Below are positions 21,594-28,110 of a stretch of DNA of 64,000 nt, piece by piece. Under the pieces are notes generated by a model that was given only the letters and a program-made list of their open reading frames with translations, had not been told where the DNA came from and did no database searches. Each line of letters begins with the position of its first letter. Position 1 is the stretch's first letter. The DNA is from Variovorax sp. J22G73 (lineage in GTDB: Bacteria; Pseudomonadota; Gammaproteobacteria; Burkholderiales; Burkholderiaceae_C). The stretch covers positions 930,001 through 994,000 of the forward strand of contig NZ_JASZYK010000001.1 of the NCBI RefSeq assembly GCF_030317035.1, read 5' to 3'. Made by a program: the position numbers and the translations under genes.

Positions 21594-22493
21594 TCAGGCC
21601 CTGAGGGTCTGCGCGTGGTGCGCGATGTGGTCCGCCATGAAGCTCTGGATGAAGTAGTAGCCGTGGTCGTAGCCCGCATGCCGGCGCAGCGTGAGCGGCT
21701 GGCCGGCGGCGAAGCAGGCGGCCTCGAAGGCCTCGGGGTGCAGCTGCTCGGCCAGGAACTTGTCGTCCAGCCCCTGGTCGACGAGGATGCCCTGCGGGTA
21801 GGGCGCGGCCACCTGCGATTTCATGAGCGCGCTGGCGTCGTGCGCCAGCCATTGCGCGCGGTCGGCGCCCGGCTCGCCCAGGTAGCCGGCGAAAGCCTTC
21901 TCGCCCCACGGGCACTGCGTGGGCGCGCAGATGGGCGCAAAGGCCGACAGCGACCTGAAGCGCCCCGGATGCCGCAGCGCCAGCGTGAGCGCGCCGTGCC
22001 CGCCCATCGAGTGGCCGAAGATGCCGATGCGTTCGCCGTCGATGGCAAAATGCTGCGCCACCAGCGGCAGCAGCTCGTGCACGATCCAGCTTTCCATGCG
22101 CCAGTGCGTGGCCCAGGGCCCGGCCAGCGCGTCGAGGTAGAAGCCGGCGCCGATGCCGAAGTCCCAGCTGTCCTTGGCGCCCGGCAGGCTTTCGACCGTG
22201 GCGCCGCGCGGGCTGGTGTCGGGCGCGATCAGCGCAATGCCCAGGCTCGCGGCCATGCGCTGCGCGCCGGCCTTGGTCGCGAAGGTTTCCTCGTTGCAGG
22301 TGAGCCCCGCGAGGTAGAGCAGGGCGGGCACGCGTTCGGGGTTGCTCTTCAGCGCCTGCGGCGGCAGGTAGACCGAGAAGCGCATCGGCAGGCCGATTTC
22401 ATGCGACGCGTGCTCGTGAAAGCTCTGCACGCCGCCGAAGGCGTGGTGCGCGGAAAGGGTCTTGGGGGTGTTGTCGGTCATGGGGTCCGTCAT
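21594..22493 (-). CDS. fghA: S-formylglutathione hydrolase
   Basis: 299 residues from ATG 22493, overlapping the upstream stop as ATGA. The nucleophile elbow is IFGHSMGGHGAL and the catalytic His is in HAGYDHGYYFI. YLAGLTCNEETFATKAG is diagnostic of esterase D/FrmB-type enzymes. It hydrolyses S-formylglutathione to formate and glutathione, the second step of glutathione-dependent formaldehyde oxidation after the adhC product encoded upstream in the same operon. Confidence 0.96.
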   Translation of the reverse strand: MTDPMTDNTPKTLSAHHAFGGVQSFHEHASHEIGLPMRFSVYLPPQALKSNPERVPALLYLAGLTCNEETFATKAGAQRMAASLGIALIAPDTSPRGATVESLPGAKDSWDFGIGAGFYLDALAGPWATHWRMESWIVHELLPLVAQHFAIDGERIGIFGHSMGGHGALTLALRHPGRFRSLSAFAPICAPTQCPWGEKAFAGYLGEPGADRAQWLAHDASALMKSQVAAPYPQGILVDQGLDDKFLAEQLHPEAFEAACFAAGQPLTLRRHAGYDHGYYFIQSFMADHIAHHAQTLRA

Positions 22494-23413
22494 GAGGTCT
22501 TTTTTTCGCGCAGGGCGGGCACCAGTTCGAGCACCGCGTCGGCGAAGGTGCGCGGCGCTTCCTGCGGCATGTTGTGGCCCACGCCGGGCACCAGCCGGTG
22601 CGAGCGCGGCCCGCTGAAGCGGTGGGCATGCGCCGACGGCTCGGCCGGTGGGCGCACGCCGTCGTCGATGCCGTCGAAGGTGATGGTGGGCACGCCGATG
22701 GCGGGCTGGGCCGCCAGGCGGCGCTCGATGTCGGCATAGGCAGGGTCGCCGGGCGCCAGGCCGAAGCGGTGGCGGTACGACTGGATCACCACGTCCACGA
22801 AGTCGGGGTGGTCGAAGGCGGCGGCGCTGCGCTCGAAGGTGGCGTCGTCGAACTTCCACGTGGGCGACCACAGCTTCCACAGCAGCCGGGTGATGCCCTT
22901 GCGGTCCTTGGCCAGGCCGGCGCGGCCGCGCTCGCTGTGAAAGTAGTACTGGTACCAGAGGCTGTGCTCGTTCTCGGCCGTGTCGGGCTCCATCGCCTTG
23001 GCGATGTTCTGGATGTTGTAGCTGTTGAAAGAGACCAGCCCCGCCACCCGCTCCGTCCACAGCGCCGCGACCACGCAGGCCGCGCGGCCGCCCCAGTCGT
23101 AGCCGGCGAGCACGGCGCGTTCGATGTTCAGTGCGTCGAGCAGCGCCAGCAGGTCGGCGCCCAGCGCGGCCTGTTCGCCCGAGCGCGGCGTGGCGTCGCT
23201 CAGGAAGCGCGTGGCGCCGTAGCCGCGCAGGTACGGCACGATCACCCGGCAGCCCTGCGCGGCGAGCAGGGGCGCCACTTCCGCGTAGGTATGGATGTCG
23301 TACGGAAAGCCGTGCATCAGCAGCACCGGCGGGCCGTCGGCGGGGCCGGCCTCGAAGTACGCGACTTCGAGCACACCGGCCTCGATCTTGTGCAAGGGTT
23401 CCATCTTTTGCAT
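22490..23413 (-). CDS. Epoxide hydrolase-like alpha/beta hydrolase
   Basis: 307 residues from ATG 23413, preceded by GGAGG with a 10-bp gap. The oxyanion HGFP is in LLMHGFPYDIHTY, the Asp nucleophile in LAGYDWGGRAA and the catalytic His in VPGVGHNMPQEAP. Asp in place of Ser puts it with soluble epoxide hydrolases and dehalogenases. It sits between adhC and fghA and is translationally coupled to the latter, so it presumably acts in the same catabolic sequence, perhaps on an upstream intermediate. The 131-bp gap before it carries repeat copy B. Confidence 0.87.
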   Translation of the reverse strand: MQKMEPLHKIEAGVLEVAYFEAGPADGPPVLLMHGFPYDIHTYAEVAPLLAAQGCRVIVPYLRGYGATRFLSDATPRSGEQAALGADLLALLDALNIERAVLAGYDWGGRAACVVAALWTERVAGLVSFNSYNIQNIAKAMEPDTAENEHSLWYQYYFHSERGRAGLAKDRKGITRLLWKLWSPTWKFDDATFERSAAAFDHPDFVDVVIQSYRHRFGLAPGDPAYADIERRLAAQPAIGVPTITFDGIDDGVRPPAEPSAHAHRFSGPRSHRLVPGVGHNMPQEAPRTFADAVLELVPALREKKTS

Positions 23414-23543: not shown

Positions 23544-24662
<1,119 letters not shown>

Positions 24663-24702: not shown

Positions 24703-25419
24703 TCAGGCAGGGCCAGCAGGGAAGATACCCGACATGCCGATGAACCCCGGCACGTGGCGGAAATTCCAGACCCAGTTTCGCAGTGCGGGAAATTCGTCGA
24801 GCGAAATGCCGCCCTCGCCGGCCAGCGCGACGTAGGGAAAGCAGGCCAGGTCGGCAATGGTGGGGTCGCCGGACGAGGCCAGCCAGCGCATGCCCGTGCC
24901 GGCTTGCCCGGCATGCCCGGCATGCTCTGCCCGTTCGGCTTGTCCCGCCTGTTCCGACTGTTCCGCCTGTTCCGACTGTTCCGCCAGATGGTCGTCGAGC
25001 ACGCGGAACACCTCGCGCGCGCCGCGGCGGCAGGCCTCGATGTCCAGGTGGTGGTAGCCCAGCGCGTCGTGCAGCCGCGCGGCCGACGCGGTGCGGGTGA
25101 TGTCGTCGGCCGTGGCCAGCCACATGGCGACCTGGCCGCGCAGCTTCGGGTCGTCCGGATACCAGCGGCGCTGCGTGTCGTAGCGGCTCGCCAGGTAGAC
25201 CAGGATGGCCTGCGCATCGCGCAGCACGAAGCCGTCGTCATCGAGCACCGGCAACTGGCCCAGCGGGTTGAGGTTCGCCAGGAAGGCGGCTGACTTGTGT
25301 TCGCGGCCCGGAAAAAAATCGACCGGCACCGTCTGGTAGTCGATGCCGAGCCACGCCAGCATCTGCCGCACCTTGAAGCAGTTGCCCGAGAGCGGGTAGT
25401 CGTACAGCTTCATCGTCAT
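24703..25419 (-). CDS. Glutathione S-transferase with low-complexity insert
   Basis: 238 residues from ATG 25419, overlapping the oxygenase stop as ATGA. The N-terminal thioredoxin fold starts [19 protein letters not shown], with the Ser of the active-site loop, and the glutathione-binding cis-Pro region is [10 protein letters not shown]. The helical C-domain is interrupted near residue 150 by a Glu/Gln/Ala-rich insert of about 28 residues ([19 protein letters not shown]), encoded by 9-bp repeats. The insert then gives way to normal GST sequence ([16 protein letters not shown]). It may conjugate or reductively dehalogenate a substrate, or act as a demethylation or isomerisation partner for the oxygenase. 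Confidence 0.88.
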
Positions 25420-26267
25420 GCCCCGGTCTCCGAGTGTTTCACGCCGAAGCGCATGCCGCGCTCGCGCAGCCAGCGCCGGTACGTGACCGACGAGGTGTCG
25501 CCGCGCGTGGGCGTTTCGGCGCGGCCTTCGAGCGGCATGCGCTTGAAGGCGTGGTTCTCCAGTATGGGTTTGTCCTGCCCGAAGATGGTGTGCTGGAAGG
25601 CGATGAGCGCGGCGCCGCTGGAGTCGTCGTCGTAGCAGGCCAGCACCGTGTGGGCGACGACATGCTCGTCGTCCACCGGCTGCAGGAACAGGCCGATGGC
25701 GTCGAGCGCGCCCTCGCGAAAGCTCGACTTGTAGAGCATGGCCGAGAAGGGCTGCATCACGCGGTACTTGTAGAGCACCTCGCTGCCGGTGTCGTGCGCG
25801 GCCGAGGCGCGCGGCTGCCAGAAGCGGCAGTCGGTGGCCCAGATCTCGCCTGTGGCGGGCTCTATGGCCACCTGGTACCGCGCGACCTCGGTGTGCGGCA
25901 CCTTGCCGAGGTAGTCGGCGTGCACGAAGGGGAAGTGCGCCATGTCCAGGAAGTTCTCGATCACGCGCAGGCCCGACACCGCCACGCCGATGCCGCCGCA
26001 GTCGATGGTGCGGCGCCCGGGTTCGCTGTATTCGGGAAAGTCGAACAACGCGCGCGCCGGCCGGCCGCTGGGGCAGGCCCAGAGGTAGCCGTAGCGCGAT
26101 TGCACGGCCAGCGGCTGCTCGCCGACGCGGCAGTGCGGCGTGCCGTCGCCATCGGTCCACAGCCGCACGGTTTCGCCGAGCAGGCGGGTGGTGCGCGGCA
26201 CCGTGGTGGCGGGCCCGAGAACGAGCCAGTCGTCGAGCATGTTGGGGTCGTCGGTTACGAAGGGCAT
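25416..26267 (-). CDS. Ring-hydroxylating oxygenase catalytic subunit lacking its Rieske centre
   Basis: 283 residues. The opening (DDWLVLGPATTVPRTTRLLGETVRLW) matches the first strands of a VanA/PaO-type Rieske oxygenase. The sequence then jumps from about residue 48 to GEQPLAVQSRYGYLWACPSG, the block that normally follows the Rieske domain, and no CxH...CxxH pair exists. The mononuclear iron site is intact: N105, D108, H111 and H116 in ENFLDMAHFPFVH, with D232 in IFGQDKPILE as probable third ligand. Family members with the domain are about 340-350 residues. The gene 13 bp upstream encodes a separate Rieske protein, so the two probably form one split enzyme. Related enzymes include O-demethylases. 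Confidence 0.82.
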   Translation of the reverse strand: MPFVTDDPNMLDDWLVLGPATTVPRTTRLLGETVRLWTDGDGTPHCRVGEQPLAVQSRYGYLWACPSGRPARALFDFPEYSEPGRRTIDCGGIGVAVSGLRVIENFLDMAHFPFVHADYLGKVPHTEVARYQVAIEPATGEIWATDCRFWQPRASAAHDTGSEVLYKYRVMQPFSAMLYKSSFREGALDAIGLFLQPVDDEHVVAHTVLACYDDDSSGAALIAFQHTIFGQDKPILENHAFKRMPLEGRAETPTRGDTSSVTYRRWLRERGMRFGVKHSETGA

Positions 26268-26280
26268 GGGCGGGCTTTCT

Positions 26281-26949
26281 TTAGCCGAGGGCTTCGATGT
26301 CGCCGCGCAGGGTGCGCGCGGCGGTGTGCAGGGTCGCCATTGCGGCGCTGCCGTTGAGGGCGTCGCTCCACAGGTGGACGAAGGTGAGGGCGGGTTGCGC
26401 GTCGAGCACCAGCGCGACGGTGTCGACGCCGTCGAGCCGGCCGCGCCAGCCGCCGGAGTCCGCGTTGCTTGCAAAGCCGCGTTGCAGCAGTGCGTCACGC
26501 ACGGCGGCGGCCGGTGCGCGCACGGTCAGCGTGCGGCAGAAGTGCCAGCCGGCGGGCACGGCATCGGCCAATGCCGGCGGCGCGGCTGTGTCGGGCGACA
26601 GCGCGACCCACAGCATGCCCGCGGCCTCCGCGATGGGGAAGGTCTTCGCGCACACGTTGCGCGGCGCCTGCATGGCCGGGTGGGCCGGAATGCGCGTGCA
26701 CTGCCCGCTGCCCGCTTCGTACTCCCAGCCGTGGTACGCGCAGGCCAGCCGGTTCTCGATGACCTGGCCCAGCGTGAAGCGCACGCTGCGGTGCGGGCAT
26801 CGGTTTTCCCAGGCCTGGGCGCTGCCGTCGGCGGCGCGCCAGAGCGCGAGCTCCTGGCCCTGGGCGAAGCCGGCGACGATGTTGGCGCCCGGGCGCAGGT
26901 CGGCGGCGCGGGCAACGGGGTGCCAGGGGTTGGTGTCGTGTGTGTTCAT
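26281..26949 (-). CDS. Stand-alone Rieske [2Fe-2S] protein, partner of the downstream oxygenase
   Basis: 222 residues. Rieske ligands C51-x-H53 (RCPHRS) and C70-x2-H73 (CAYHGW) are all present, followed by FPIAEAAGMLWVAL, the usual end of the oxygenase Rieske domain. The remaining 100 residues have no NxxDxxHxxxxH iron site and no recognised family. The protein can therefore carry electrons but not activate oxygen by itself. It is the first gene of the operon, divergent from a LysR gene. No reductase gene is seen nearby, so a reductase from elsewhere would be needed. An alternative is an independent ferredoxin-like role. Confidence 0.85.
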   Translation of the reverse strand: MNTHDTNPWHPVARAADLRPGANIVAGFAQGQELALWRAADGSAQAWENRCPHRSVRFTLGQVIENRLACAYHGWEYEAGSGQCTRIPAHPAMQAPRNVCAKTFPIAEAAGMLWVALSPDTAAPPALADAVPAGWHFCRTLTVRAPAAAVRDALLQRGFASNADSGGWRGRLDGVDTVALVLDAQPALTFVHLWSDALNGSAAMATLHTAARTLRGDIEALG

Positions 26950-27138: not shown

Positions 27139-28110
27139 ATGAGCCGCATCGATCTCGCGCTGGTCGAGGCCTTCGTGCTGGTCGCCCGAAGCGGCAGCCT
27201 CACCAGGGCCGAAAGCCTCTCGGGCACGTCGAAGGCCACGCTGAGCCGCCAGCTCGTGCGGCTCGAAGAGCTGCTGGGCGCGCAACTGCTGCTGCGCAGC
27301 CCGCGCCGCATGGCGCTCACCGAGGCCGGCCGCGCCTTCCTGCTGCGCGCCGAAGGCCTGCTCGACGAGGTCACGGGCCGGCTCGAAGCGGCGAGCACCG
27401 AGGTCCACGAGCTGACGACCGGCGTGTCGGGCCGGCTCTCGCTGCTGTCCGACACGCAGTTCAGCACCTCCTTCGTCTGCCATGTGGTCAAGCTGTTTCT
27501 CGCGTCGCACCCCGATGTGCGCTGCCAGCTCGACGTGGCCAGCGGCTTTCATGCGCCGCGCGTGGACGATGTCGACTGCTACGTGTGCGCCGAGCCGCCC
27601 GATGCGCCCAACCTGGTGGCCAAGCTGCTGGGCCGGCTGAACTACGGGCTGTACGCGAGCCCGCAGTACCTGGCGCGCCACGGTATGCCGGGTTCGCCCG
27701 AAGAACTGTCGCGGCACCAGTCCATCGTGATGAAGGAGCCTTCGTCGACCCGCGCGCAGGTGCTGCTGGTGTCTGGCGCGTCGAGCTTCGCCTTCGGCCC
27801 CGAGCCGGCGTTCGAGACCAACGACCACTGGGTCATGAAAACTTTCTGCATCGACGGCCTGGGCATCGCGCTGCTGCCGGCCTTCTTCGTGCGGCCCGAG
27901 GTCGAGCAGGGCGTGCTCGTGCCGGTGCTGCCGCAGTGGCAGCCCGAGCCGCGCCGCATCTACTGCGCCTACCAGCGCCAGCGCTACATGGGCCAGAAGC
28001 TGCGCGCCTTCGTCGACCTGATGGCGCGCTGCGTGGTGGACATCGACTCTTACAACTACTACGTCGGCTCGTCGGCCGGCAAGCGTCGCCGGACGGCCGC
28101 AAGACCATAA
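27139..28110 (+). CDS. LysR-family transcriptional regulator
   Basis: 323 residues. The N-terminal helix-turn-helix is [20 protein letters not shown], followed by the effector domain. It is divergently placed 189 bp from the Rieske oxygenase operon and is its likely activator, with an upstream substrate or formaldehyde-related compound as a possible inducer. A gap of 47 bp separates it from aroQ on the same strand. Confidence 0.92.

Follow-up and report, generated by a model that had tools for sequence, protein, structure and literature searches.

Here we describe a Rieske non-haem iron oxygenase that appears to be divided between two neighboring genes of Variovorax sp. J22G73. The genes lie in the window, by which we mean the whole stretch of 64,000 nucleotides that was analyzed (contig NZ_JASZYK010000001.1, positions 930,001 to 994,000), and they are listed with their neighbors in Table 1. 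Gene A encodes a Rieske chain and gene B a catalytic chain. We put the probability at about 80% that the two are halves of one heteromeric oxygenase, held together by a GST-like protein, that demethylates its substrate and arose through complementary loss.

Table 1 Genes of the oxygenase cluster and its surroundings in the window.
Feature	Position in window	Strand	Evidence
Gene A, Rieske subunit on its own chain (222 aa)	26281..26949	-	ORF, Pfam, alignment, AlphaFold model
Gene B, catalytic subunit, 283 aa	25416..26267	-	ORF, Pfam, alignment, AlphaFold model
GST-like protein, 236 aa, NdmE counterpart	24703..25413	-	GST N-terminal domains (Pfam)
FrmA, S-(hydroxymethyl)glutathione dehydrogenase	23544..24662	-	TIGR02818, 624 bits (cut-off 544)
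Alpha/beta hydrolase	22490..23413	-	PF00561, 3.4e-20; same place in 8/8 Variovorax loci examined
FrmB, S-formylglutathione hydrolase	21594..22493	-	TIGR02821, 401 bits (cut-off 282)
LysR-type regulator, divergent	27139..28110	+	PF03466 and PF00126

Genes A and B are separated by 13 bases, and both reading frames are open. The minus-strand order is gene A, gene B, the GST-like gene, frmA, the alpha/beta hydrolase gene, and frmB. The GST-like gene directly adjoins gene B, as in NdmCDE-type loci, and its product scores 354 bits against a profile of cluster-borne GST-like proteins built from six members, the window's own protein among them. Short tandem repeats at window positions 24888-24985 give this protein a low-complexity insert rich in E, Q, A, and G, which is absent by eye from shorter GST-like relatives. 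Among the matches listed, the nearest named relatives of gene B are from Variovorax, and frmA, the hydrolase gene, and frmB occur together in all eight Variovorax loci examined. The divergent LysR-type gene is the probable regulator of the oxygenase cluster; it has matches at 80-89% in four of the eight Variovorax loci (L029-L031 and L045) and at 52-60% in six of eight other free-Rieske loci examined. The remaining four Variovorax loci (L033-L036) have no LysR match in the fetched stretch, and all four carry an aroQ-like gene immediately upstream of the Rieske gene.

The product of gene A has a single type of Pfam match, to the Rieske domain (PF00355, 1.3e-19), and its cluster ligands, C51-x-H53 and C70-xx-H73, are invariant in 44 of 44 aligned chains. 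This agrees with the earlier note, a reading of the letters alone, which had described the upstream gene as a complete Rieske domain (C51, H53, C70, H73) with no iron site. The chain ends at residue 222, with the reductase domain absent. Its AlphaFold model has a pLDDT of 95.0, and residues 4-222 superpose on GxtA residues 5-284 (Z 19.1, rmsd 3.1, 210 residues); because the model aligns over nearly the whole of this oxygenase, gene A encodes more than a Rieske domain. The last 90 residues (approximately 131-222) are predicted to form a strand, a helix, three strands, and a long helix, and in the model they look like a shrunken relic of the catalytic domain. Across 20 same-genus orthologues, identity to the window protein averages 85% in the cluster stretch and is 56-71% in the relic.

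For gene B, Pfam recognizes only oxygenase C-terminal domains (VanA_C, 4.3e-17; KshA_C, 2.3e-5). N105, D108, H111, H116, and D232, which had been proposed as its mononuclear iron site, are in place and are invariant in 7/7 and in 58/58 aligned chains. We take the roles of these residues, a 2-His-1-carboxylate site and a bridging Asp, to be those of the oxygenase family. The proposed lack of cluster-ligand residues is also borne out by profile comparison, with a gap of about 50 residues falling on the cluster-binding stretch, equivalent to approximately residues 48-97 of gene A. In the AlphaFold model (pLDDT 89.5), residues 3-277 superpose on the full SxtT chain, residues 1-334 (Z 32.4, rmsd 1.9, 269 residues), and the modeled chain looks like one that keeps the Rieske shell without the cluster loops.

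The profiles of the two chains can be aligned (probability 98.4, E 7.7e-15), and their gaps are reciprocal: B is without the cluster stretch, A without the iron-bearing one. The simplest reading is that reduction took opposite courses in two related oxygenase chains. Using 11 of the available same-genus orthologues, we obtained dN/dS values of 0.30-0.48 for gene A and 0.15-0.39 for gene B; by this measure of the sequences, both genes are under purifying selection and are not debris.

We surveyed the motifs of all relatives collected for either chain, with near-identical chains kept (L043 and L044 have the same architecture rows) and the window locus counted twice. Of 126 catalytic chains, 125 contain the iron motif NxxDxxHx4H and none the Rieske motif; all 92 Rieske chains contain the Rieske motif and none the iron motif. 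The sole exception to the iron motif is a frame-broken plasmid copy, L011. This locus, from a plasmid of Cupriavidus sp. EM10, belongs to the caffeine type; its catalytic, Rieske-reductase, and GST-like genes each occupy more than a single reading frame, and the reductase that looks "separate" there probably stems from a broken fusion.

Co-conservation of the two genes, which the earlier note had set as a test of the split, was found: in a set of 61 genomes, made up of the window's own and those of 60 relatives, the two genes occur together in 18, are both absent from 43, and in no case occur singly, at a threshold of E 1e-30 for gene A. Gene B has matches in 28 of the 61, of which 18 are the Rieske-less form and ten are only one-chain relatives at 37-45% identity (37-43% within the same genus; 45% in one genome of another family). 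The note had also considered that gene B might be a degenerate allele with intact fused relatives in sister strains. The intact one-chain relatives are instead paralogues, since their identity is low and the tree separates those included in it from the Rieske-less clade. L129, one of 11 one-chain relatives, lacks the Rieske motif pattern although the Rieske profile matched.

With a catalytic-chain profile built from seven sequences, the best 80 of at least 479 confirmed relatives in named genomes were kept as loci, and a Rieske partner lies within the fetched stretch in 68 of these 80. Eleven of the 12 loci without a Rieske chain in the stretch were searched genome-wide, and a partner was found in 11/11; the twelfth, L071, is on the same contig as one of those 11 (L059). 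The genome follow-up comprised 22 loci, namely these 11 and 11 more in which the Rieske gene lies at the far end of the stretch (cut by the stretch edge in nine), and it yielded a strong Rieske partner in 22/22 (E 2.8e-53 or better). The two-gene layout is present in many genera. Among the best 80 of at least 479, we found Rieske-reductase fusions (32 loci), a free Rieske chain with a separate reductase (7), a free Rieske chain with no reductase inside the fetched stretch (29), and no Rieske chain in the stretch (12). A GST-like gene is in the stretch in 57 of the same 80, including 31 of the 32 fused loci, and was not found in the stretch of 11 of the 29 loci with a free Rieske chain and no reductase. 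Two catalytic chains occur in 18 of the 32 Rieske-reductase fusion loci of this set (e.g., L048, L052, L063, and L077); as the copies belong to separate subclades, heteromers with two kinds of active site are suggested.

We next turn to the phylogeny. In a maximum-likelihood tree of 110 rows, without near copies and L011, the 101 Rieske-less chains form one clade (100/100) beside the one-chain oxygenases. Within it, a free-Rieske group of 47 rows (91/62) is sister to a fused group of 54 rows (98/86), and the latter includes NdmC of Paraburkholderia caffeinilytica. This tree carries a long-branch warning, with L014, L009, and L046 among the rows concerned. In a quick outgroup-rooted tree, the Rieske-less clade has a support of 0.66, two added NdmC-like proteins from P. 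putida plasmids fall in the fused group, and the fused form is nested inside the free forms (0.95), from which the fusion looks derived rather than ancestral. Gene B is outside the fused (NdmC) clade in both trees. In one row of the fused clade, L051 from Pseudonocardia, no reductase was recognized with the Rieske chain.

No reductase match was found in the window's gene cluster. The genome as a whole has eight good matches to the cluster-type reductase (E 5e-41 or better), none with a clear assignment, and an orphan VanB-type reductase lies at G000:C3:126615-127592 (L138:5616-6593, plus strand). At E 1e-90 or better, this orphan reductase is carried by 16 of 16 genus members with a window-type cluster (counting the window's own genome) and by 8 of the 21 that lack such a cluster; its position next to the reductases borne by the clusters has a support of 0.34. 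Since its identity tracks kinship and the tree support is weak, we treat it only as a candidate donor.

Two genomes of the window's genus, G005 and G014, encode the catalytic (Rieske-less) domain and a VanB-type reductase as a single open frame, 625 and 653 codons long (L125:1435-3309, plus strand; L136:547-2505, minus strand), with a separate Rieske gene just upstream. The reductase part of these fusions falls together with the separately encoded reductases of other clusters (support 0.89). The gene set recurs in a third genome, G015, where bases at the join are unresolved; at L124, the unresolved bases lie between the catalytic and reductase parts. We found no description of a catalytic-reductase fusion in the excerpts of the literature that were searched. 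The same modules are thus linked in different ways, Rieske to reductase in some clusters and catalytic domain to reductase in others, which we count in favor of the two genes being halves of one enzyme.

Other explanations for the pair can be weighed against this evidence. Gene A could be an ordinary Rieske ferredoxin serving several oxygenases, with gene B a one-center oxygenase that accepts electrons from any donor. Gene A does match Rieske ferredoxins, both in sequence (naphthalene dioxygenase ferredoxin, 3.7e-4) and in structure, where the Rieske fold is shared over 102 residues (Z 15.7), but it is far closer to the Rieske domains of oxygenases (SxtT, 2.7e-27). Naphthalene-type ferredoxins have about 100 residues and no catalytic-domain relic, whereas gene A is twice that length with a second domain, and among the 61 genomes it occurs only where the Rieske-less gene B does. 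The match strengths and the structural alignment led us to reject a plain ferredoxin, and the wider arrangement with interchangeable donors seems quite improbable. Far less credible still is a one-chain oxygenase decaying into fragments. Part of the full protein is indeed absent from each chain, but the chains overlap in sequence and so are complementary relatives, not two pieces of one gene; the layout is also conserved across many genera, and dN/dS is 0.15-0.48 over the two genes. A pseudogene or frameshift of a one-chain oxygenase was rejected on dN/dS and conservation.

The pair might also be a true NdmCDE N7-demethylase acting on 7-methylxanthine, from whose reductase the Rieske domain was secondarily cut. 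Both belong to the same superclade, the GST-like, frmA, and frmB neighbors are as expected for such an enzyme, and three other free-Rieske clusters (L038, L041, and L043) contain NdmA/NdmB-like one-chain oxygenases. However, gene B is not part of the fused clade with the NdmC-type rows, and the fusion looks derived, not ancestral, in the quick tree. NdmA has no close homologue in the genome, the best match being at 35% identity, and Pfam recognized no purine transporter among the selected neighboring window ORFs checked. We consider this explanation rather unlikely.

The preferred reading remains that genes A and B form one heteromeric oxygenase, most likely a demethylase that releases formaldehyde. 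We infer that the GST-like protein would hold A and B together and that electrons would start at NADH, enter a VanB-type reductase encoded outside the cluster of genes, reach the [2Fe-2S] center of A, and then cross the subunit contact via D108 to the iron in B. There, O2 would be activated and a methyl group oxidatively removed, with the freed formaldehyde presumably passed to FrmA and FrmB. Electron transfer in one-chain oxygenases already runs from one subunit to its neighbor, so a split chain would keep this route and need no new chemistry. The formaldehyde genes directly downstream in the window, and the presence of frmA, the hydrolase gene, and frmB in 8/8 Variovorax loci examined, support demethylation in this branch; with frmA in the stretch of only 21 and frmB of 14 of the best 80 of at least 479 loci, the case for it does not extend securely to the whole clade.

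Both chains would descend from complete oxygenases, B having lost the cluster loops and A the iron-bearing part. We lean slightly toward a history in which two duplicated oxygenase chains, reciprocally stripped, re-paired as a head-to-tail ring, which would make the pair a separate class of heteromeric Rieske oxygenase. The free Rieske form would then be the older one, and NdmD and the catalytic-reductase fusions would be later, independent weldings.

According to the available portion of a 2025 review, each Rieske oxygenase alpha subunit carries both metal centers, and no self-sufficient Rieske oxygenase has been identified (PMC12445004). The fusions found here are not self-sufficient because the Rieske chain remains separate, though they could serve as natural blueprints for linking a reductase to an oxygenase. 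NdmCDE has so far been an odd exception to the one-chain rule, and the loci described here make the split a widespread branch of Rieske oxygenases. A separate small Rieske subunit would also permit cluster-to-iron transfer to be studied by mixing, titrating, and mutating the two pieces.

The closest solved structures for both window chains are the one-chain enzymes SxtT and SxtDIOX/GxtA, which, unlike the window pair, have both centers on a single 334-residue chain. Next closest to gene B by sequence are NdmA and NdmB, N-demethylases of the NdmCDE pathway, which differ from gene B in having an intact Rieske domain on the same chain. In these two enzymes the cluster-to-iron distance is given as 12.1 Å between neighboring subunits and 44.7 Å within one, in the part of the source consulted (PMC10380055). 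Compared with a canonical alpha subunit, gene B has the oxygenase fold and the iron-site residues but not both centers on one chain.

The earlier note knew of no characterized two-chain version, a claim that does not hold, since NdmCDE already splits the two centers; the novelty shrinks to the layout and does not extend to the principle. As described in the excerpted source, NdmCDE of Pseudomonas putida CBB5 has a Rieske-less catalytic chain, a Rieske domain on the reductase NdmD, and a GST-like partner (PMC4408171). The literature excerpts state that NdmC is insoluble alone and requires NdmD and NdmE, with which it forms a 360 kDa 3:3:3 complex (PMC10380055), that the structure of the complex is unsolved (PMC13237722), and, in the cited NdmCDE literature, that ndmCDE homologues occur in 18 further organisms. 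NdmCDE-type gene sets are also present at L009 and L140. At L038, L041, and L043, the one-chain oxygenases beside the free-Rieske clusters are placed with the P. caffeinilytica pair that resembles NdmA/NdmB, hinting at a link between the free-standing form and methylxanthine use there. Gene A residues 1-182 align with the NdmD N-terminus of P. caffeinilytica at 41% identity, and three NdmC-type proteins share 43-47% identity with gene B. What is new here is the free-standing Rieske protein in a cluster without a reductase, of which the searched extracts of the literature contain no description. Like NdmCDE, the window has a catalytic chain without the cluster, a Rieske domain on another chain, a GST-like gene, and formaldehyde genes nearby; the difference is that the reductase NdmD bears the Rieske domain as its own N-terminus, whereas the window encodes this domain as a 222-residue protein in its own right. 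The window pair is therefore a sister type of NdmCDE, the N7-demethylase of the caffeine pathway.
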